Source: Borrelia turicatae 91E135 (GTDB taxonomy: Bacteria > Spirochaetota > Spirochaetia > Borreliales > Borreliaceae). From it: DNA of 64,000 nucleotides. Within the stretch, counting starts at the first letter, position 1, and every line of letters begins with the position of its first letter. Positions 21,164 to 33,079 of this stretch are shown piece after piece. The stretch spans positions 248,001 through 312,000 of the forward strand of contig NC_008710.1 of the NCBI RefSeq assembly GCF_000012085.2, in the 5' to 3' direction. Made by a program: the position numbers and the translations under genes. The notes under the pieces were generated by a model that ran no database searches, had not been told where the DNA came from, and saw nothing but the letters and a program-made list of their open reading frames with translations.

Positions 21164-23506
21164 CTAAATAAACACATCCCGTGGTTTTGAGCCATTTACA
21201 GGACCTATATATCCCATCTCTTCCATAAGCTCAATAATTCGTGCAGCTCTATTATATCCTATCTTTAATCGCCTCTGTAAATAAGACGCAGATGCTTTTT
21301 TAGTAGAACGAATAATTTCAAGAGCTTCCTCAAACATGGGCTCATCTGAAGGATTTAGAACCACAGTATCAGCTCCCACAATACTATCAATAAATATTTC
21401 ATCATCAATATAATTTGGGGTACCAAATTTTTTCACTTCTTCAACTAATCTATAAACTTCTTTTTCATTCAAAAATCCACCTTGAATTCTTTGAGGAAAA
21501 GGTGTAGTAGGATTAACATAAAGCATATCACCCTTTCCTAAAAGTTTCTCAGCACCTGATGCTCCAAGAATTATTCTTGAGTCCATAGAACTAGCAACCA
21601 TAAAAGAAATCCTTGAGGGAAAATTAGCCTTTATTACTCCCGTAATAACATCAACAGATGGTCTTTGAGTAGCAAGAACTAAATGCATTCCAACAGCCCG
21701 AGCCATAGCTGCAAGCCTAGAAATCAAATTTTCTAAATCCTTTCTTGCAGAAAGGATCAAATCTGCAAATTCATCAATAATGATTACTAAATAAGGTAAT
21801 GGGGCTTCATTTAACCCCTCTTCCAGTATTTTTTTATTATAAGCATTAATATCCCTCACAAGAAAATTATCAAGAAGAACATATCTTCTCTCCATCTCAT
21901 CAAGACACCAACGAAGGGCTTCTAAGGCTCTATTTACATCAGTAATAACTGGGGTTAACAAATGTGGAATATCATTAAAAAGCTTAAGCTCAACCACTTT
22001 AGGATCTATTAGTACAAGCTTAACATCATCTGGGGATTTTGAAAAAATAATTGAAGCAATCAGTGAATTTACACAAACCGATTTTCCAGCCCCAGTAGCA
22101 CCTGCTATTAAAAGATGGGGAGCATTGATAAGATCAAAAACAACATTACTTCCATTAATTTCTTTACCAAGTGCAAAAGGCACTTTAAAATCACTTTGAA
22201 ACTCTTTACTATTTATTATTTCTGAGATCAAAATAAATTCTCGTCTTTTATTAGGAATTTCAATCCCAACAGCTTCTTTACCAGGTATTGGTGCAATAAT
22301 TCTAACCCGAACTGCTGCAAGCCTTAAGGCAATATTATCAGATATAGAAGTTATTCTTGAAAGCTTAATACCTTTATCAGGACGAACAGCATACATTGTA
22401 ACAACGGGTCCTTTAATAACATCAATAAGCTTAGCATTAATATTAAATTCTTTAAAAGTTTCCTGTAAAATCATCGATTGTTTTTGAATTTCTCGATCAT
22501 ATTCAATATCTTCAGTTTCACTTTTAGGTTCTCTTTGATCAAAAACAGAAATATCTATTAAATAATTATCACTACCCTCACCTACTAATAAATTTCCATA
22601 ATCAATCTTAACAAGATTACTTATGATGCCCTTATGCCGTATATCACCAACCTTAATTTTTCCACTAGACACTAACTTATTATCCTCAAATTCTGTTAAT
22701 GCTTTATACTTAGAATCATCTGTAACATTTAGATCACACTGAGAATCTTGAAACGATTGCTCTTCCGATAAGTTGTCATCGCTCACCTCTGATTGACAAA
22801 AAATGGTCTTATCTAAATTAACATCTAAAGGTTTATTGGGTTTTCTTAAAAAGGCTTTAAAAGACCATAAAGCCTGATACTCTTCATCATTAATGATATT
22901 ATCTCCCTTATCAGAAGTCTTAGCTGCATCCAAATTACCATCACAATCTTTATACACTTTAATATTTTTTTTAATTTTTAGAGTATTTAAAAACGGTAAA
23001 AAAGCAAACATACTTTCAAACAAAATTTTCAATTTAAATACTATAAAATGAAAAGTATTTAAAACAAAGCTAGCATCCTTAAAAAGGACATAATTCAAGT
23101 AAATCCAAATAACAAGTTCCAAAATTAAAATAAGAAAAACAAAAAAATTGCCAAGCATAATCCCAAAATTACTCAAAAACCAATTAATAAAATTAGAACC
23201 CTCAAGATCAGAATTAATTCTTAACCAAAATGTCAGCGTAAAAAATAAAATAACCGTATAATTCCAATTAAATACAAATTTCTTGCTAAATATATTGTTG
23301 CGATAAGCATACCAATTTACAAGCGGATAAAGTATTAGATAAAATGATAAAAATGAAAAAGTATTTAGAAGCATATGACCTATTAGATTAAAAACAAAAA
23401 ATATGAATATATTTCCTACAGGGGTTAAAGCAACAAAAAGCGAGAATGATATAACAGCCAACATAAAAAAAAACAAAAAATGAAAATAATGATAAAAATT
23501 TTTCAT
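21164..23506 (-). CDS. ftsK: DNA translocase FtsK/SpoIIIE
   Basis: 780 residues. The N-terminal 180 residues hold about four transmembrane helices that anchor it at the septum, then an acidic low-complexity linker (about 185-300), and the motor: Walker A GATGAGKS at 469-476 and Walker B VIIIDEFADL. The last 65 residues are the winged-helix gamma domain (SASYLQRRLKIGYNRAARI and the GYIGP turn) that reads polar chromosome sequences. It pumps DNA to clear the septum and helps resolve chromosomes; Borrelia's chromosome is linear. The ribosome site is weak. uppP lies upstream on the same strand, 13 bases away. Confidence 0.95.
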   Translation of the reverse strand: MKNFYHYFHFLFFFMLAVISFSLFVALTPVGNIFIFFVFNLIGHMLLNTFSFLSFYLILYPLVNWYAYRNNIFSKKFVFNWNYTVILFFTLTFWLRINSDLEGSNFINWFLSNFGIMLGNFFVFLILILELVIWIYLNYVLFKDASFVLNTFHFIVFKLKILFESMFAFLPFLNTLKIKKNIKVYKDCDGNLDAAKTSDKGDNIINDEEYQALWSFKAFLRKPNKPLDVNLDKTIFCQSEVSDDNLSEEQSFQDSQCDLNVTDDSKYKALTEFEDNKLVSSGKIKVGDIRHKGIISNLVKIDYGNLLVGEGSDNYLIDISVFDQREPKSETEDIEYDREIQKQSMILQETFKEFNINAKLIDVIKGPVVTMYAVRPDKGIKLSRITSISDNIALRLAAVRVRIIAPIPGKEAVGIEIPNKRREFILISEIINSKEFQSDFKVPFALGKEINGSNVVFDLINAPHLLIAGATGAGKSVCVNSLIASIIFSKSPDDVKLVLIDPKVVELKLFNDIPHLLTPVITDVNRALEALRWCLDEMERRYVLLDNFLVRDINAYNKKILEEGLNEAPLPYLVIIIDEFADLILSARKDLENLISRLAAMARAVGMHLVLATQRPSVDVITGVIKANFPSRISFMVASSMDSRIILGASGAEKLLGKGDMLYVNPTTPFPQRIQGGFLNEKEVYRLVEEVKKFGTPNYIDDEIFIDSIVGADTVVLNPSDEPMFEEALEIIRSTKKASASYLQRRLKIGYNRAARIIELMEEMGYIGPVNGSKPRDVFI

Positions 23507-23519
23507 AACTCTATTAAAA

Positions 23520-24314
23520 TCAAAAAAGGAAATAAACTAAACTTACAAGTATAATTAAATAAACCGAAAAATAATAAAGTTTACTATCCTTAAGCATTTT
23601 AACAAACAAACTAATTGAAAATAATCCAACCATAAAAGCAATAATTGCCCCTAAGTTTATCTCAAAAACACTAAAAAGCATATCTGACTCAAATAACTCC
23701 TTATACTTTAAAAGTAAACTTCCAAAAACAATAGGAATCAAAGATAAGAACGAAATCTCAAATGACTCTGACCTGCTAAACCCAAGCAAAACTGAAGCAA
23801 AAATTGTAATTCCTGAACGAGAAATACCCGGCATAGCTCCAATTCCTTGCATGGTCCCAATTAAACATCCTGCAAACAAGATGTTTTTTTTAAAATCAAA
23901 AATTAAAATCTTAAATTCAAGCAAAAACAATAAAATACTTGTCAAAATAAAATTAACTAAAACCAAATCAAGAGTAAATAACTCCTTAAAATTTTCTATA
24001 AAAATTCCAACAAATGCTGTAATAAGAGTGATTATTGATATGAGTAATATTAATCTCAACTTTACAAAATCCAACTTGGTAGTCTTTCTTAAAACAAATT
24101 TTACCAAGACTACCACAAGTTCTAATATTCGTTTGCGATAATAAATCACTACAACCAAAACAGTTGCAAAGTGCAAATAAATATCAAATACCATCGGAAG
24201 ATCAATATGCATAAACTTTTTTAAAAGCAACAAATGCCCTGAACTAGATATAGGCAAAAATTCAGAAATTCCTTGAACAAAGCCTAAAATCATAACTCTT
24301 AAAACATTTTCCAT
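23520..24314 (-). CDS. uppP: Undecaprenyl-diphosphatase UppP (BacA)
   Basis: 264 residues, very hydrophobic, about eight membrane segments. It removes a phosphate from undecaprenyl diphosphate to recycle the lipid carrier for peptidoglycan synthesis. The two family motifs are present: [20 protein letters not shown] at the N-terminus, with the catalytic Glu and Ser residues, and [12 protein letters not shown] in the middle, with the catalytic Arg. The start is taken as the ATG at 24314; the TTG immediately before it is possible. It lies between slt and ftsK, both envelope or septum genes. Confidence 0.94.
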
Positions 24315-24329
24315 CAAGTTCTCGACAAC

Positions 24330-26459
24330 CTAAAAACTTTTGGGAAATTCACCCATAATATATTCTATAATAAAATCCATTCCCTTACTCTCATATAAAG
24401 CATCATACAACACACAATAAACCAATATCTTCTTAACGTAATTTCTAGTTTGCCCAAAAGGAATTGCTTCAATAAAAAACTCCTTAGGTAAATGCCCATA
24501 ATCCCTCTCCCATTTACGCACATTTCCAATGCCACCATTATAGGATGCAAGAGCTTTATATACCTCTCCGATCATTTTTATTCTTTTACTTAAATAATAA
24601 GTTCCTATGATAACATTATCTTTTGGTTGTTTCAAATCATAATCATAATATTTAATTTCTCTAGAAACATCAACTGATGTTAAAGGCATAATCTGCATAA
24701 GCCCAATAGCACCAGGCTTAGACACAGCATTTCCTTTAAAACTACTCTCAGCTTTTATTAAAGAAAACACAAGACTAGGCTCAAGTTTCCGTCTCTTTGA
24801 CCAATACCTAATTAAATCATTATACAAACACGGATAGAGACGCTTATAATCATCTCTACTTAAAGCCGAGTTATCTTGTTTGACAAGATAGTTAATAGCA
24901 AGTGTAGATTCATAATAATATTCATGCCTTACAAGTTCATCATAAAGGTTACGGTAAAAATTAGGAGAAAACCTATAACCATTATTAAAATCACTAGCAA
25001 CAAAAGCACTAACATAAGAATGCAGATTAAATTTTAAAAACCCTTCTAAAAACCTTTCATAATCAGACTGATCATAATGAATATTTAAATCATTTTCAAA
25101 AAAATCATTAATACTTTGATTCAACAAATATTTGCTCATAAATGAGGCATAAGATATCCGATTATACTTAATAGAAGAACGCAAAAGTTCGTCATACTCA
25201 TTTCTTGACTTAGAAGCAATAAATTTATGATATATAAGCCTTGCATTAATAAAGGCAAGTCTAGATAAAACAGCACCATCAATAATATTTTGACCATTAT
25301 GATAAAGTGCATATAAATTATCATAATCCTTAAGTTGCACAGCTTCTAGAATATATTCATCTAATATCTTAATAAAGCCAAGATTATTCCTATCCTTATC
25401 CGTATAAAATCTAGCTACATTTTGAGCAAAATAATTTCTTGTATTCTGCAAAAATATTAAATTGCCAAAAATTTCATTAAGTATTTCTAACCTATAAGGT
25501 TCATTTTCAAGAGAAGCATTTTCTAAATATTTAACTATGGTAAAAAACCCTACGTCCTTTTTTAATCTTAAATTAATAAGCCCTAAATAATAATCCTTAT
25601 AAACACTATTTAAACTACTAAAAAAAGACAACGCCTTACTAATATAACCTGAACCTAGAAAAGCTTTATAAACATCATTTAAAAATACAAAATTATTATA
25701 ATATTTCTTAAAATCATCATTTAATATACTGATTGCGCCCTTTAAATCTCCATTAGCTACCAAGGATTTAAACTTCACAAGATTAAAAAAAACTGAACTT
25801 AAAAGATTGGATCTCTCTTCAAGAACAAGATAATCATGGGCCCTTACGTGTAAATATTCTGCTGGCAAATCTTCAAATAATTTACTGAAATAAATCAATG
25901 ATGAATTAATATCAGAAGCATTAAAATAAAGAACTGCCTTAAATAAAAGATTTTCATTCTCTTGAGATTGTGCAAAATTCATCTTTTCAAGCTTATTTAA
26001 AACCAAAAGAGCTTCATCATTCTTTTTTTGCCAATAAAGACTTTTGAAATATCCTAATATAATAAATTTATTATTATCATATCTTTTGTAAAGTTTGCGT
26101 CCAACAAGTTCAGCCTCAAAATATTCCCTTCTAGCATTATAATATTCAAGAAGCTTAATTCCAGCAAATTGAGATGCAATATCATTGCTACTCTTTATTG
26201 CCTTATACATATATTCCTTAAACTTTTCATCATATCCTATTTTTTTAAAAAGATAGGCAATATACACATAAGAATTTGAATCTATGCCAAAATATTCATC
26301 GAAATTTTTTCCCGCATAGTCAAAATTCCATAACCAATTCAGATGACTTAAATCAAAATTATCAACATTCCTTTTAACTATATTGCTATTTAAAGACCCT
26401 TTCCCAAAAGAACAAGAAAATAAACTTAATAAGAACAAACAAATAATTTGCTTAAACAT
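24330..26459 (-). CDS. slt: Soluble lytic transglycosylase (lipoprotein)
   Basis: 709 residues from the ATG at 26459. A longer frame to 26522 starts inside the upstream gene and would hide the lipoprotein signal: a hydrophobic stretch ending LSLFSC with Cys about residue 15. The first 540 residues are helical solenoid repeats. The C-terminal SLT domain has SLIKAESSF with catalytic Glu571, GLMQIMP, and ALASYNGG. It cuts glycan strands in the periplasm. The Lyme homologue BB0259 has been tied to flagellar assembly through the cell wall. Its ATG overlaps the previous stop by 8 bases, and I see no strong ribosome site, so it is probably coupled. Confidence 0.93.
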   Translation of the reverse strand: MFKQIICLFLLSLFSCSFGKGSLNSNIVKRNVDNFDLSHLNWLWNFDYAGKNFDEYFGIDSNSYVYIAYLFKKIGYDEKFKEYMYKAIKSSNDIASQFAGIKLLEYYNARREYFEAELVGRKLYKRYDNNKFIILGYFKSLYWQKKNDEALLVLNKLEKMNFAQSQENENLLFKAVLYFNASDINSSLIYFSKLFEDLPAEYLHVRAHDYLVLEERSNLLSSVFFNLVKFKSLVANGDLKGAISILNDDFKKYYNNFVFLNDVYKAFLGSGYISKALSFFSSLNSVYKDYYLGLINLRLKKDVGFFTIVKYLENASLENEPYRLEILNEIFGNLIFLQNTRNYFAQNVARFYTDKDRNNLGFIKILDEYILEAVQLKDYDNLYALYHNGQNIIDGAVLSRLAFINARLIYHKFIASKSRNEYDELLRSSIKYNRISYASFMSKYLLNQSINDFFENDLNIHYDQSDYERFLEGFLKFNLHSYVSAFVASDFNNGYRFSPNFYRNLYDELVRHEYYYESTLAINYLVKQDNSALSRDDYKRLYPCLYNDLIRYWSKRRKLEPSLVFSLIKAESSFKGNAVSKPGAIGLMQIMPLTSVDVSREIKYYDYDLKQPKDNVIIGTYYLSKRIKMIGEVYKALASYNGGIGNVRKWERDYGHLPKEFFIEAIPFGQTRNYVKKILVYCVLYDALYESKGMDFIIEYIMGEFPKSF

Positions 26460-27645
26460 AATTACTGTTTTCACATTTAGTAATTTTTTCTTCTTTATAA
26501 AAAGGACAATCATAAATTGCAAAATTTCTAGGATTTAATACTTTAGAAAAAATCAAAAACAATGAAAAAAATATCAAAAGAAATAAAGAAATAAGACTTA
26601 AATAAAGCATAGAAGTTTGAATCAAACCTTCTTCCGAATCTAAATCCAATCGACTCTCTTCAATATCTGTAGCAAAATCTTCCTTACTAAAATCCAAAGC
26701 AACATCATCAAATTCACTCTCACCCAACCCATTATCAAGGTCGGTAATAATGTCCTCAACGTCCCAATTATCAGAATACGAATCTTGAAGAGTATAAACA
26801 TTAACACTCTTAAAATCAGTGTCCTTATCTTCAACTAATTTCACAGCATTAGCAGCAGAATTATCAGAAGCAGCACTCGAATCACTAATATCAACAGAAA
26901 TGTTATCTAAATCGAAATCATCTCGGCTGACAGTATCTTTATCATTAAGGACGTGTTCTTCAAGATCATTCCCTTCATCAATATTATTCTCAAACCCATC
27001 TCCTGTAAGCCCAAAATCAAAATTTTCTAAATTAAGATCAGAGTCAGAATCCAAATTTTCACTTACCAATGTACCATTATCTGAATTTAAAGAATCCGAT
27101 AATAAATTAAAATTATTCTCATTACTAAAAAGCTTTTCGTCTGCAGACAAATTTTGAGAATTAGGTAAATCATTAAAATTATCTAAATCACCATCTAAAG
27201 AATCATACTGCCCAGCAACACTGCCAAATTCTTTAACAAATTCCTCTTCACGCTCTACACCACTAAAACCAACGGGCAAATCACTCGACTTAGCACTCTC
27301 TAAATCATTAATTTCTTCTGAATCTACAGCAAGATTAATTAAGCTTAAATCAAACTTAGACTTATTTGCAATTCCATCACACTCACCATAAACATAAAGC
27401 ATCATAGAATCTATTTTGAAATAAACATTTATATTAGCACTCTCTTTCCTAAGATTATCTAAGAAAAAAGACCCAATAATAACAGAATTAGAAAAGTCAT
27501 CATGTTCACTAATATAAAAATCCAATTTTACATTAGGTTCATCTGCAATCTTACCTAATACCACTCTCTTTACAGCAGTATCATCCAAACTTAAAATTGA
27601 AAAATATTCATCATTAGACAGCCTTATGGCTAAAAACCCTTTCAA
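26452..27645 (-). CDS. Acidic membrane-anchored protein with Hsp70 substrate-domain-like N-terminus
   Basis: 397 residues from the TTG at 27645, chosen because AAAAAGG lies 9 bases upstream and the extra 30 residues of a longer frame look spurious. Residues 1-100 align by eye with the beta substrate-binding domain of the Hsp70 at 31074-32582: LSNDEYFSILSLDD, then IGSFFLDNLRK, then INVYFKID. There is no nucleotide-binding domain. Residues about 110-340 are extremely rich in Asp, Ser, Asn and Glu, probably disordered. A single membrane helix spans about 345-370, with a short tail carrying two cysteines. Annotated as hypothetical in Lyme Borrelia (BB0260). Its function is unknown. It is coupled to slt, which suggests envelope work. 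Confidence 0.8.
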   Translation of the reverse strand: MKGFLAIRLSNDEYFSILSLDDTAVKRVVLGKIADEPNVKLDFYISEHDDFSNSVIIGSFFLDNLRKESANINVYFKIDSMMLYVYGECDGIANKSKFDLSLINLAVDSEEINDLESAKSSDLPVGFSGVEREEEFVKEFGSVAGQYDSLDGDLDNFNDLPNSQNLSADEKLFSNENNFNLLSDSLNSDNGTLVSENLDSDSDLNLENFDFGLTGDGFENNIDEGNDLEEHVLNDKDTVSRDDFDLDNISVDISDSSAASDNSAANAVKLVEDKDTDFKSVNVYTLQDSYSDNWDVEDIITDLDNGLGESEFDDVALDFSKEDFATDIEESRLDLDSEEGLIQTSMLYLSLISLFLLIFFSLFLIFSKVLNPRNFAIYDCPFYKEEKITKCENSNYV

Positions 27646-27834
27646 GAATTCCAACCTTTTTGTTCTTTTGTAAAAAACAAATTTATATATAATCAAACTA
27701 TAACAATAATATAATATAATTAATACTATGTTCAACTTACAAGTAATCTTTTATTTAACAGAAAAAACATTCAAAGGCTATAAACTACTGTTTTATATGA
27801 TATTACTAAATATGACTTTTTAGGAGAAGTTAGG

Positions 27835-29205
27835 GTGTTACCGTTATTCATAATACTTTCCTCAGCTGCAATATCTCTTTTGATATTTTTATTCTTCAAA
27901 ATTGCAATATCAAACACAAAAATAAGAAAAAAAGGTAAACATAATAAAACAAAAAAACTAACAGACAAAGCTGCAAACATATTAAAAACAAATCCAAACG
28001 AAATAAGTGCTTTACAAACTCTAAACGATTATTATTATTCCAATAAAGACTTTGAAAATGGTATTAAATATGCCAAAAAATTATGCCAACTTATAGAAGA
28101 AAATCCTACAAATCAAAGAATAGATTCTTTTAAGGCTTTCTTAAGTTACGGTTTTTATAATCTTGAGAGAAATTTTAATTCAGAAGCATTGGTATTTCTT
28201 AAAAAAGCATACATCATGAAAAAAACCGATGTAGATGCAAATTACTACCTTGGAATAGCCTTCTTAAGAAATGCACATTATAAAGAAGCACTACATTATC
28301 TCACAAAAATATATAAATTTGATAAAAACAATAAGGATGCCTTAAAATACATAGGAATAACGCTTTTTCATATGGAAAACTATACTAAAGCTGTCGGGAT
28401 ATTTAACAGCATAAGCAAATATATACAAAATGACGTAAATGCTCTATTAGCATATGCCCAATCTCTATCTCAATTAAATCAGGACCGGCTTGCATTTTCA
28501 ATTGCAAACAAAATAAGAAACAAAGATGGAAGGATATATGAAGCTCTTTTAATTGAATCTGAAATTAATTCAAAAAATAACAACTTAACAAAATTAGAAG
28601 ATAACATTAGAGAAATGATGAAGATCAAACCTGATTTACCAACAAAAACATTCCTTAAACTATTTTACAAACTAGGAGAGCTGTATATAGAACATGAAAA
28701 CTACAAAAAAGCAACTGAAGCGTTTACTCGAGTTGAAAGAATTGATCCACACTATCAAAAAATTACTGAAAAATTAGAATTTAGTAAAAGACTGAATGAA
28801 AATTTAGCATTAAGAATATATCTTAGAAGTCCAAAAGAAAAGTTTGATAATTTAGCTAATGCAATTATCCTTAAACTCTATAAAAACAAGTTTCAAGTAA
28901 GAGATAAAAAGATAAATGAAATAACCTCACAATTTATAGACATAAATTTCCAACTATCAAATAATCAATGGGAAGAAAATTTAATAGTTCGATTTGTCAG
29001 AACAGATCAAAAAAATTTTGGAGAATTATTCCTAAAAGACCTTATTGCAAAAACCAAAGAAAGCAAATTAAAAGGACTCTGTATTGCACCAGCTACATTT
29101 TCTGATAAAGCCAAACAAATCATTGAAGGGAGGTTAATTGACCTCATAGAAGGAAAGAAACTAATACAAATATTAAAAACACTGGATATATCAAAATACG
29201 TATAG
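27835..29205 (+). CDS. Membrane-anchored TPR protein
   Basis: 456 residues, GTG start with AGGAG 8 bases upstream. One membrane helix at residues 5-22, a basic stretch, then at least five tetratricopeptide-type helical pairs from about 50 to 310, for example ALVFLKKAYIMKKTDVDANY, EALHYLTKIYKFDKNNKDAL and KATEAFTRVERIDPHYQKI. The C-terminal 130 residues (from LRIYLRSPKEKF) form a separate alpha/beta domain that resembles a restriction-endonuclease-like fold (NLIVRFVRTD, LCIAPATFS), a weak suggestion only. TPRs usually scaffold protein complexes. Lyme counterpart BB0261. It ends one base from the convergent LysM/M23 gene. Confidence 0.85.
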   Translation: MLPLFIILSSAAISLLIFLFFKIAISNTKIRKKGKHNKTKKLTDKAANILKTNPNEISALQTLNDYYYSNKDFENGIKYAKKLCQLIEENPTNQRIDSFKAFLSYGFYNLERNFNSEALVFLKKAYIMKKTDVDANYYLGIAFLRNAHYKEALHYLTKIYKFDKNNKDALKYIGITLFHMENYTKAVGIFNSISKYIQNDVNALLAYAQSLSQLNQDRLAFSIANKIRNKDGRIYEALLIESEINSKNNNLTKLEDNIREMMKIKPDLPTKTFLKLFYKLGELYIEHENYKKATEAFTRVERIDPHYQKITEKLEFSKRLNENLALRIYLRSPKEKFDNLANAIILKLYKNKFQVRDKKINEITSQFIDINFQLSNNQWEENLIVRFVRTDQKNFGELFLKDLIAKTKESKLKGLCIAPATFSDKAKQIIEGRLIDLIEGKKLIQILKTLDISKYV

Positions 29206-29206
29206 C

Positions 29207-30472
29207 CTATCTGAGATATTTCATAGGATTCCCCGTTTTTCCATCTTTAAAAATAGTAAAATGTAAATGATTGCCCGTGCTATACCCTGTACTTCCCATA
29301 CGTCCTATTATTTGTCCTCTTGAAACCCTCTGTCCAACTTTCACTGCAAAAGAACCTAAATGAGCATAAAGAGTTTGAAAACCATTATTATGAGAAATAA
29401 TAATATATTTTCCATATCCTCCAACACTAAATCCAGCTGTTACCACAATACCTTCTTTTGTTGCAAAAATAGGTGTATTAGCTACATTTGCAATATCAAT
29501 CCCATTATGAAAACTAATAATTTTGGTAAAAGGATCAGGACGATAGCCATAACCTGAAGTAATAACGCCTTGAGTTGGAAATAAAAAAGTCTCTCCTAAA
29601 GCATTTCTAAGTAATTCTTTAGCCATTTTTCCCCCAGGAATAAACAATTTTTGCCCTAAATACAAAACTTCATTATCAAGGTTATTAGCATCAAGAATAT
29701 CTACTTTGGGAATCTTATATTTTTTTGCAATTGATGAGAGAGAATCACTTTTCTCAACAGTATAAAGAACGCCTTTCATATTAGGCACATTAATAACAAA
29801 ATTAGGCCTAATGCTCCTTACATCTTTAATATCATTATAAGAAATTAAAGTCTCACTCGTTATGCTATATCTGGCTGCAATATGAGAAAGTGTCTCTCCA
29901 GGATTAATTTTATGTTTAACTACCTTTAAAACAAAAGGCTTCCTTACAGTTGCTTCATAACTATTTGTATCCACTCCAAATAGATGATTATTGATCTGAC
30001 TTAAATCTTGATCGCTATAATATAAAAAAGTATCAATAAAATAATCCTTGGGAAAACTCAGCCTACTTAAAAAAATGTACGAACCATAATACGAAAAAAT
30101 ATTTAAGTAAAAGACTAATACTAAAACAAAAATTATCGCATTAAATCTAAAAATAAAAATATAAGTTAGATTGATATCATAATCATTAATCATTTTAAGT
30201 CGAATCTTATTATAAGAAGATCGATACTTATAATTATCAATGATTACCATCCTACCAAATAAAGTCAAAAATAATAACTTAATTACATCTAAAAGTTTGT
30301 TTGGAATATTCATAAAACGAAAAAATTTTTTCCGTTTTTTTCTATGAAAGTTACGAATATTACCAAAATCTCTCAATTCAAAATCACCTTTAATAGCCCT
30401 ATCAAATAAAAAATTTCTATTTCTTTTTAATACATTCTGATCCTTTTTTGGTATAATCATAATATGACTCAT
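29207..30472 (-). CDS. Membrane-anchored LysM/M23 peptidoglycan peptidase
   Basis: 421 residues. A basic cytoplasmic head of about 100 residues (dense Arg/Lys near 41-53), one membrane helix at about 105-128, two LysM peptidoglycan-binding repeats (about 186-229, HKINPGETLSHIAARY, and 236-279, YTVEKSDSLSSIAKKY), then an M23 domain with HNGID (His322, Asp326), YAHL (His371) and HLHFT (His402, His404). It should bind and cut the cell wall, in the style of NlpD/EnvC but with its own active site. The start could also be Met5 at 30460; TATAAT overlaps the first ATG and there is no ribosome site. Lyme counterpart BB0262. Confidence 0.9.
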   Translation of the reverse strand: MSHIMIIPKKDQNVLKRNRNFLFDRAIKGDFELRDFGNIRNFHRKKRKKFFRFMNIPNKLLDVIKLLFLTLFGRMVIIDNYKYRSSYNKIRLKMINDYDINLTYIFIFRFNAIIFVLVLVFYLNIFSYYGSYIFLSRLSFPKDYFIDTFLYYSDQDLSQINNHLFGVDTNSYEATVRKPFVLKVVKHKINPGETLSHIAARYSITSETLISYNDIKDVRSIRPNFVINVPNMKGVLYTVEKSDSLSSIAKKYKIPKVDILDANNLDNEVLYLGQKLFIPGGKMAKELLRNALGETFLFPTQGVITSGYGYRPDPFTKIISFHNGIDIANVANTPIFATKEGIVVTAGFSVGGYGKYIIISHNNGFQTLYAHLGSFAVKVGQRVSRGQIIGRMGSTGYSTGNHLHFTIFKDGKTGNPMKYLR

Positions 30473-31073: not shown

Positions 31074-32582
31074 TTAAGTCAATTCAATACTGTCTTCTAA
31101 CACCCTACTAGATCTCATGTCTTCTAATGAAGCAAGAACACCTTCGTTTTCAAAACCACTATCAAAAGAAGAACTTGTCATTCTTATTTGAATTGACTTA
31201 GAAACATGCGTATCTAAATCTTTTGCAGAAATGCTTAAGATACCACTTTCATCCAAACTAAAAAGTATCTCTATCTTTGGCATACCTCTTAAAGCCTTTT
31301 GTATATTACTAAAAAAGAATCTGCCTATAGAATAATTCAAAGATGCTTTCTTATATTCACCTTGAAGGACATGTATCTCAATCTCTTCCTGATAATCATT
31401 AGTTGTTGTAAAGATTTTTCGCTCACAAACCGGTAATAAAGTATTTCTCTTAATTAACGTAAAAAATCCATCATTACAAGTCTCAATGCCAAGAGAATAA
31501 GGGGTTACATCTTTAAAATCAATAAGAGTACTATTATTTGACAGACTACAAGCATGAATGCCCGCACCATTTGCAACAACTTCATCTTGATTTAAGGAAT
31601 CCAATACTTCAATTTTAGGAAAAATTTCCTTCAATCTCTCTTTAACTAAAGGAATTCTTGTTGAACCTCCTGAAAGTATTATTTTTGAAATACGTTCAAG
31701 ATCAACACCTGAATCGGCAATACATTCATTTGTAAGACTAATAGTTTTCTCTATAAATTCCTTAATCATAGAATTAAAATCATTTCTCTTAAGTTTATAA
31801 TTCAAATGCTTGCCATCAAGAAAAGGTAATACAATACTAACCTCATCCATAATAGATAAACTTTTTTTAGCTTCTTCAATTTTGTCTCTTATCTGTTCAA
31901 GAATAACAATATCATCTAAATCAATATCAGGATATTCTTCCTCAAAACTGGTTAAGACATGCCTTTCTATGACTTCATTAAAATTATTTCCGCCAAGTTT
32001 ATTCTCGCCCTTAATTGCAAGAACAGTATAAGTATCATTTTGTTTTTCTAAAAGAGTAACATCAAAAGTTCCACCACCAAGGTCATAAACAAGAAATAAT
32101 CCATCTATTTGTTTTTCAAAAGCATAAGACAAAGCGGCTGCTGTTGGTTCATTAAGTATTGCACGACATTTCAATCCCGCAAGACTTGCAGCTTCTACAA
32201 CACCTCTTCTTTGAATTTCAGAAAAATAAGCAGGAACAGTTATTACAACATCACAAATCTCTGTACCTAAAAATTTCTCAGCATTCATCTTCACATTTAA
32301 AAGTAAATAAGAAGCAATATCCTCAGCTCTATATGTATTATTACCCACTTCATAAGAGACTTCGGTACCTATATCAACTTTAAAATTATAAAAAGTCTTA
32401 TCTGGGTTTACCAATATTTGATGTCTAGCAATACTACCAACAATAATACCAGAATCTGTAAAAGACACAATAGAAGGTGTCATTCTCTCACCCCTATCAT
32501 TTAATATAACCCTAGAATTAGCATCAAAATAAGACGCTACAGTATTTGTAGTCCCAAGATCTATGCCTATCCATTTTTCCAT
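31074..32582 (-). CDS. Hsp70-family chaperone without lid domain (DnaK-2 type)
   Basis: 502 residues against about 640 in DnaK. The start is the ATG at 32582, with AGGGG 6 bases upstream; a TTG one codon earlier is less likely. The nucleotide-binding domain is intact: WIGIDLGTTNT at the start, VVITVPAYFSEIQRRG, FLVYDLGGGTFDVTLL and KIILSGGSTRIP. The beta substrate-binding domain follows (TPYSLGIET to SISAKD). The protein ends about 30 residues later, so the alpha-helical lid and the C-terminal tail that contacts cochaperones are missing. Substrate release should be fast. It shares one base (TGATG) with the upstream HTH/coiled-coil membrane gene. Lyme counterpart BB0264. Confidence 0.92.
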   Translation of the reverse strand: MEKWIGIDLGTTNTVASYFDANSRVILNDRGERMTPSIVSFTDSGIIVGSIARHQILVNPDKTFYNFKVDIGTEVSYEVGNNTYRAEDIASYLLLNVKMNAEKFLGTEICDVVITVPAYFSEIQRRGVVEAASLAGLKCRAILNEPTAAALSYAFEKQIDGLFLVYDLGGGTFDVTLLEKQNDTYTVLAIKGENKLGGNNFNEVIERHVLTSFEEEYPDIDLDDIVILEQIRDKIEEAKKSLSIMDEVSIVLPFLDGKHLNYKLKRNDFNSMIKEFIEKTISLTNECIADSGVDLERISKIILSGGSTRIPLVKERLKEIFPKIEVLDSLNQDEVVANGAGIHACSLSNNSTLIDFKDVTPYSLGIETCNDGFFTLIKRNTLLPVCERKIFTTTNDYQEEIEIHVLQGEYKKASLNYSIGRFFFSNIQKALRGMPKIEILFSLDESGILSISAKDLDTHVSKSIQIRMTSSSFDSGFENEGVLASLEDMRSSRVLEDSIELT

Positions 32583-33079
32583 CAAGTACCCCTATGAATT
32601 GAAACAATTAATTCAATTTCACCCAAATCCAATTTCAACTTTTTAGCAATAACTTCTAAAGACATTCCTTGCTCATAAAGTGAAATAACTTGCTGGCGAA
32701 TATTATATCCTTCCTTGATTATATTTTTCTCAATAGTAGGTATTGAATAATCTAAATTACTCTTATAAACACTACTATCCCCTTTCATGCTAAAATTATT
32801 ACTTCCCATTGAAATCGAATGAGCATTAAATCCCAATAGTCTTTGATCAAGTATTTCTATCCTCTCATCAACTTCCTTAATAATTCTATTTAAGCTTTCA
32901 ATCTTTATCTCAATAATATTTATATTTCTATCAGTTGCTTGATTAATTTCAATAATAGTTTTATCTACCTCACTCCTAAATTTCCTAAGTATACTATTAG
33001 ATTTGATTTTCAAACTAATATAAATATGAAAATATATAAAAATAAATATAATCAAAATAAAACAAAAAACAACAAACAT
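32582..33079 (-). CDS. Membrane-anchored coiled-coil protein with C-terminal helix-turn-helix
   Basis: 165 residues. One N-terminal membrane helix (residues 2-23), a coiled coil to about 85 (ATDRNINIIEIKIESLNRI), a polar linker, then a helix-turn-helix-like end: RQQVISLYEQGMSLEVIAKK, then LKLDLGEIELIVSIHR, the shape of sigma-region-4 type domains. Such anchored HTH-like proteins occur near motility genes in other bacteria; DNA binding is not shown here. Its stop overlaps the Hsp70 start, so the two are coupled. AGGA lies 8 bases before the ATG. Lyme counterpart BB0265, hypothetical. Confidence 0.8.
   Translation of the reverse strand: MFVVFCFILIIFIFIYFHIYISLKIKSNSILRKFRSEVDKTIIEINQATDRNINIIEIKIESLNRIIKEVDERIEILDQRLLGFNAHSISMGSNNFSMKGDSSVYKSNLDYSIPTIEKNIIKEGYNIRQQVISLYEQGMSLEVIAKKLKLDLGEIELIVSIHRGT

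Follow-up and report, generated by a model that had tools for sequence, protein, structure and literature searches.

A membrane-anchored Hsp70 substrate-binding domain without its ATPase, encoded beside a lytic transglycosylase in Borrelia and other spirochaetes

The window analyzed here is the whole 64,000-nucleotide stretch of the Borrelia turicatae 91E135 genome (contig NC_008710.1, positions 248,001 to 312,000), and all coordinates below are counted within it. The computations covered domain homology and fold, the absence of an ATPase domain, the transmembrane (TM) helix, the LysM domain of relatives, gene order, and cleft conservation. From gene order, which also supplies the locus name, we infer that the protein encoded at 26452-27645 is the ortholog of B. 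burgdorferi BB0260; orthologs were present in all 36 Borreliaceae genomes searched. The genes and features of the locus are as follows.

21164-23506, minus strand: FtsK DNA translocase homolog, at the end of the conserved cluster
23520-24317, minus strand: UppP/BacA undecaprenyl-pyrophosphate phosphatase homolog, the next gene in the conserved cluster
24330-26459, minus strand: mltS (BB0259), flagellar lytic transglycosylase (NCBIfam NF047373, E=5.4e-226)
26452-27645, minus strand: the whole open reading frame, 397 amino acids, with a TTG start at 27645
26455-26547, minus strand: short basic tail, residues 367-397, at the position of the LysM domain in other spirochaetes
26548-26610, minus strand: single TM helix, residues 346-366 (MLYLSLxSLFLLxFFSLFLxF), nearly invariant in Borreliaceae
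26614-27330, minus strand: acidic linker, residues 106-344 (about 240 residues), Asp/Ser/Asn-rich, 28% D+E, predicted to be disordered
27331-27645, minus strand: Hsp70 substrate-binding domain beta (SBDbeta), residues 1-105, eight strands, with nothing ATPase-like before it
27655-27661, minus strand: Shine-Dalgarno-like AAAAAGG upstream of the TTG
27835-29205, plus strand: divergently transcribed gene for a membrane-anchored TPR protein, BB0261-like, a conserved upstream neighbor

The names UppP/BacA and FtsK are those that we take these two genes to deserve from family knowledge and conserved homology. Both the TTG start of the central gene and the AGG core of the motif upstream of it are kept in 30 of 30 Borreliaceae. 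Residues 1-105 are the best conserved globular part of the protein, family members being about 60-97% identical to the window sequence here, and the TM helix is the last nearly invariant block. A sequence-only reading of this locus had described a domain without an ATPase, followed by an Asp/Ser/Asn-rich region and one membrane helix, and this description holds. The open reading frame begins at the SBD, and no match to the N-terminal actin-like nucleotide-binding ATPase domain was found in the window protein or in the orthologs scanned; residues 106-344 are followed by one hydrophobic helix. Further, a helical lid (SBDalpha) is not predicted in the low-confidence model of this part, which has no helix between SBDbeta and the TM helix (339-369 in the model), the acidic linker lying there. 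We regard this anatomy of the BB0260-type protein (SBDbeta, acidic linker, and TM helix) as established with near certainty.

The starting point for the Hsp70 assignment was an alignment made by eye between the first 100 or so residues and the SBDbeta of an Hsp70 encoded nearby at 31074-32585. It proved to be identical to the optimal Smith-Waterman alignment of residues 1-105 with that domain (score 52), and residue shuffling gave p=0.001 against the SBD and p=0.011 against the whole Hsp70. BLASTP between the two proteins detects nothing, and phmmer and profile searches with the Borrelia sequence alone returned no Pfam, NCBIfam, or PDB match, a result that would fit an unrelated beta-sandwich resembling the SBD by chance. 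The hhalign comparison of a Borreliaceae-only profile with Hsp70 SBDs was weak (probability 23%), with a score of 25.3 that exceeds all 60 column shuffles (maximum, 22.2). Taken alone, the pair formed by the window protein and the neighboring Hsp70 is thus suggestive of homology.

Proof comes by way of intermediates, because the Pfam, profile, and fold matches of its relatives link the Borrelia domain to Hsp70. The Borreliaceae-only domain profile reached about 16 other Spirochaetia genomes (E values of 6e-13 to 1e-4), and it also matched true Hsp70s, aligned over the SBD, in two genomes. Of 10 Spirochaetia orthologs scanned, 9 match the Pfam HSP70 model above the cut-off and in its SBDbeta part only (model positions of about 387-559, with the best stretches mostly at 395-508), Hsp70 being the top family for the orthologs, as had been predicted. 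A profile of 28 diverse family domains retrieved DnaK SBD structures, best 1dg4 (E=2.9e-14), and all of the 60 matches listed for it are Hsp70s. With an alignment of 121 sequences, AlphaFold folds the window domain into the anticipated Hsp70 beta-sandwich of eight strands (E4-8 to E92-99), with a pLDDT of 86 and a pTM of 0.76; the Borreliaceae-only alignment gave a pLDDT of 39.5, and it was the addition of the distant orthologs that raised it. Each of the 50 Foldseek matches listed is a Hsp70 SBD or a full Hsp70 (probability 1.00, TM score up to 0.72). In a tree, the family domains and spirochaete Hsp70 SBDs part on one branch with a support of 1.0. Hence, residues 1-105 are a true homolog of the Hsp70 SBDbeta (DnaK 393-507) without the ATPase. 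The ortholog Pfam matches, the profile matches to DnaK SBDs, and the Foldseek results rule out a chance resemblance, against which gene order traced through the intermediates speaks as well, and we give that explanation practically no weight.

The proposed search across Borrelia and other spirochaetes yielded, besides the Borreliaceae, orthologs throughout the class Spirochaetia. Their usual order outside Borrelia is SBDbeta, acidic linker, one TM helix, and a C-terminal LysM domain. The last of these was detected in 102 of 112 sequences from outside Borrelia. Among the remaining ten, four (L066, L085, L092, and L148) stop at contig ends and one (L097) is masked, while L065, L070, L175, L195, and L197 appear to be genuine losses. 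The LysM domain is also absent from all Borreliaceae, which we read as a secondary loss; these are counted as family members because orthology rests on the SBDbeta domain and gene order. A search for a LysM domain encoded beside the gene in Borrelia turned up a single LysM-like match in the whole window, to the M23 protein at 29207-30472. The linker has a median length of 58 residues outside Borreliaceae (up to 388) versus a median of 216 within them. SBDbeta-TM-LysM is an old spirochaete family rather than a peculiarity of Borrelia. A more distant protein (L258:3059-4285, family f26) combines an SBD-like N terminus, a TM helix, and a long STTG repeat with OmpA as its C-terminal domain, which is another peptidoglycan-binding module; its gene neighborhood differs.

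One ortholog with a LysM domain (L254:4012-4944, genome G108) is followed by a transglycosylase (SLT) gene and then by a GidA-like gene, and from this gene order it is very probably the Treponema pallidum protein TP0042 (TPASS_0042). TP0042 would accordingly share with the family an SBDbeta-like domain, a TM helix, a LysM domain, and an adjacent transglycosylase gene, whereas the published in silico annotation is that of a LysM peptidoglycan-binding protein only (PMC5951579), leaving the Hsp70 domain unrecognized.

As to its distribution, 257 relatives were confirmed when GTDB genomes were scanned with a close-group alignment; among the 80 retained, 79 have spirochaete titles and the remaining one (L135) is titled as bacterium only, and relatives outside the phylum may exist. 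A family profile, with which family members score E values below about 1e-17 versus about 1e-12 for DnaK, places the gene in most Spirochaetia families and in a few genomes of three families outside the class (f46, f59, and f72). The T. pallidum-like copy is highly divergent (E=5e-12) and is therefore missed by the threshold of about 1e-17, so that some absences may reflect divergence.

The gene neighborhood is conserved in the order divergent TPR gene, SBDbeta gene, lytic transglycosylase, UppP, and FtsK. By profiles of the window's neighbors applied to 138 loci, the SLT transglycosylase is the next downstream gene in 118 and the TPR gene is divergent in 99; UppP and FtsK come next wherever the retrieved flank is long enough, and in genus g50 of family f12, FtsK directly follows the SBDbeta gene. 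In Borrelia, the ATG of mltS sits about 8 bases inside the 3' end of the SBDbeta gene. Periplasmic flagella, motility, and the flat-wave (wavy) cell shape all depend on BB0259 (PMC8517470), and BB0259/MltS has lytic transglycosylase activity (PMC12279116). In the T. pallidum interactome, the nearby TP0046-TP0048 region has been tied to motility (PMC2386257).

Reading the presence tables family by family against FliM suggests a partial association with flagella. Families f3, f4, f9, and f18 have neither the SBDbeta gene nor FliM, and families f7, f10, f15, f20, f21, and f26 possess FliM and lack the gene, except that in f10 the FliM score is weak and one genome (G207) does show a family-level match. 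In genus g13 of f12 (L256 and L257), FliM is degenerate or absent, yet the SBD-LysM gene is kept beside FtsK. We rejected a strictly flagellar role as too narrow, given the flagellated families f7, f15, f20, f21, and f26 without the gene and its retention in g13.

Outside Borreliaceae, a basic flank on the N-terminal side of the TM helix fits an N-in/C-out orientation, and these relatives would thus combine a cytoplasmic clamp with a periplasmic peptidoglycan binder, the LysM domain. In Borreliaceae (L001-L030, n=30, and the window protein at 26548-26610), the flanks are acidic on the N side and basic on the C side, the reverse of the average of other orthologs, which by the positive-inside rule would point to N-out. 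A changed topology is one possible reading, an unusual tail another; export of a folded N-terminal part of 345 residues without a signal peptide is unlikely. SBDbeta most likely faces the cytoplasm, although the topology in Borrelia is uncertain. The sequence-only reading had envisaged a tethered chaperone-like module in the envelope, coupled to a lytic transglycosylase: the tether is borne out by the TM helix, and a tight linkage to the transglycosylase gene by the mltS overlap in Borrelia and the recurrent transglycosylase neighbor, while the domain itself was probably placed on the wrong side of the membrane.

The fold and the hydrophobic cleft positions are those of the DnaK/Hsp70 SBD (the C-terminal part of PF00012; 1dkx and 1dg4). 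At the cleft, DnaK I401, V436, and I438 were compared together with F426 (to L), A429 (to V), and M404 (to A). Over 102 non-Borrelia sequences, conservation at these positions exceeds the average (p=2e-5) and also that of other hydrophobic columns (p=0.006). Such conservation would be compatible with peptide binding in the cleft. It runs against the alternative that the SBDbeta fold has been reused as a plain protein-protein or dimerization module with a functionless cleft, an alternative that draws its strength, at least for Borreliaceae, from that family itself: the cleft shows no preferential conservation there (p=0.07 overall and 0.43 when set against hydrophobic columns), Q433 is missing and the 3-4 loop has become shorter, and it is the strand motif LYVY that is invariant instead. 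The Borreliaceae pocket positions are still mostly hydrophobic, and we consider the plain-module explanation fairly unlikely.

Conservation of the cleft would also serve a membrane-localized holdase, in which many different nascent or unfolded chains, such as flagellar or secreted precursors, are bound by the lidless SBDbeta before being passed to DnaK or Sec, the link to the wall doing no more than positioning it. Indeed, isolated lidless Hsp70 SBDs bind peptides with fast exchange. However, the protein has no ATPase, lid, or docking-loop residues for cooperating with a Hsp70 ATPase, and a general holdase needs neither a LysM domain nor a fixed place beside MltS, UppP, and FtsK; we deem it unlikely. 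A peptide-binding adaptor or tether is at least as likely as a chaperone. A third possibility is a split Hsp70, in which the SBDbeta protein would act in trans, either with DnaK or with the Hsp70 whose gene (31074-32585) lies 4 kb away in the window. The interdomain linker of Hsp70 is absent from the window protein, and P419, a loop residue shared by all aligned Hsp70s, is deleted in every ortholog, in line with the family's freedom from an ATPase. In addition, every Hsp70 has its own SBDbeta, and in the non-Borrelia genomes searched, Hsp70 genes sit away from the SBDbeta locus. On the missing linker and P419 and on these locations, we rejected a partnership with the neighboring DnaK-like gene and regard a split Hsp70 as highly improbable.

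Taking these findings together, we propose that BB0260-type proteins might be nucleotide-independent trans-envelope adaptors linking a cytoplasmic partner to wall remodeling, a proposal in which topology, peptide binding, partner identity, and process are the parts that we infer and which we hold with evenly balanced confidence. Having lost the lid, the ATPase-docking loop, and the ATPase domain itself, SBDbeta cannot cycle with ATP. It would most likely act as a peptide clamp that is constitutively open and that, at the cytoplasmic side of the inner membrane, grips an extended hydrophobic segment of a partner protein. The TM helix, together with the LysM domain outside Borrelia, would fix that partner at a chosen peptidoglycan site. 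The co-encoded MltS, UppP, and FtsK suggest that this site might be a place of wall opening, for flagellar insertion and/or division. Since Borreliaceae lack the LysM domain, wall contact there would have to come from a partner, for which MltS is the obvious candidate; it is a conserved neighbor whose gene overlaps in Borrelia, but as a separate protein it is the enzyme and not the clamp. More tentatively, the family could constitute a new class of adaptors in which an ATPase-stripped Hsp70 clamp, as a permanent cytoplasmic grip, couples a specific partner to peptidoglycan and thereby places the flagellar or division transglycosylase.

A parallel is offered by the polar landmark proteins HubP, FimV, and TspA, which are single-pass LysM proteins with a periplasmic LysM domain, a TM helix, an acidic cytoplasmic region, and polar localization. 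The spirochaete relatives appear analogous in having one TM helix, an acidic part that is probably cytoplasmic, and a probably periplasmic LysM domain; they differ in that the order is reversed, with the cytoplasmic part N-terminal, that SBDbeta replaces the TPR/FimV domain, and that the LysM domain is lost in Borrelia. Hsp70s are classically taught as two coupled halves. Compared with DnaK/Hsp70, the window protein lacks the ATPase domain, interdomain linker, P419 loop, and helical lid, and the SBDbeta of the family is N-terminal and membrane-anchored. The family is widespread and vertically conserved; it retains the substrate grip of Hsp70 alone, joined in most spirochaetes to membrane and wall, and illustrates that evolution can take an SBDbeta out of ATP-driven chaperoning. 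We found nothing relevant in the literature on BB0260 or on the SBDbeta-TM-LysM architecture, and the arrangement of SBDbeta, acidic linker, TM helix, and LysM domain in about 100 non-Borrelia orthologs is newly seen here. Among the relatives are the agents of Lyme disease, whose protein has no wall domain, and in all probability the agent of syphilis, and the family provides a concrete candidate for how spirochaetes might position a wall-opening enzyme for periplasmic flagella.

Two neighbors in the window deserve separate mention. In the TPR protein at 27835-29205, whose gene is conserved as the upstream neighbor throughout the class, the approximately 150 C-terminal residues after residue 307 match no Pfam family besides TPRs. 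The Hsp70 at 31074-32585 (minus strand, 503 amino acids) ends about 40 residues past its SBDbeta, seemingly without a helical lid, and its orthologs in other Borrelia are equally short.
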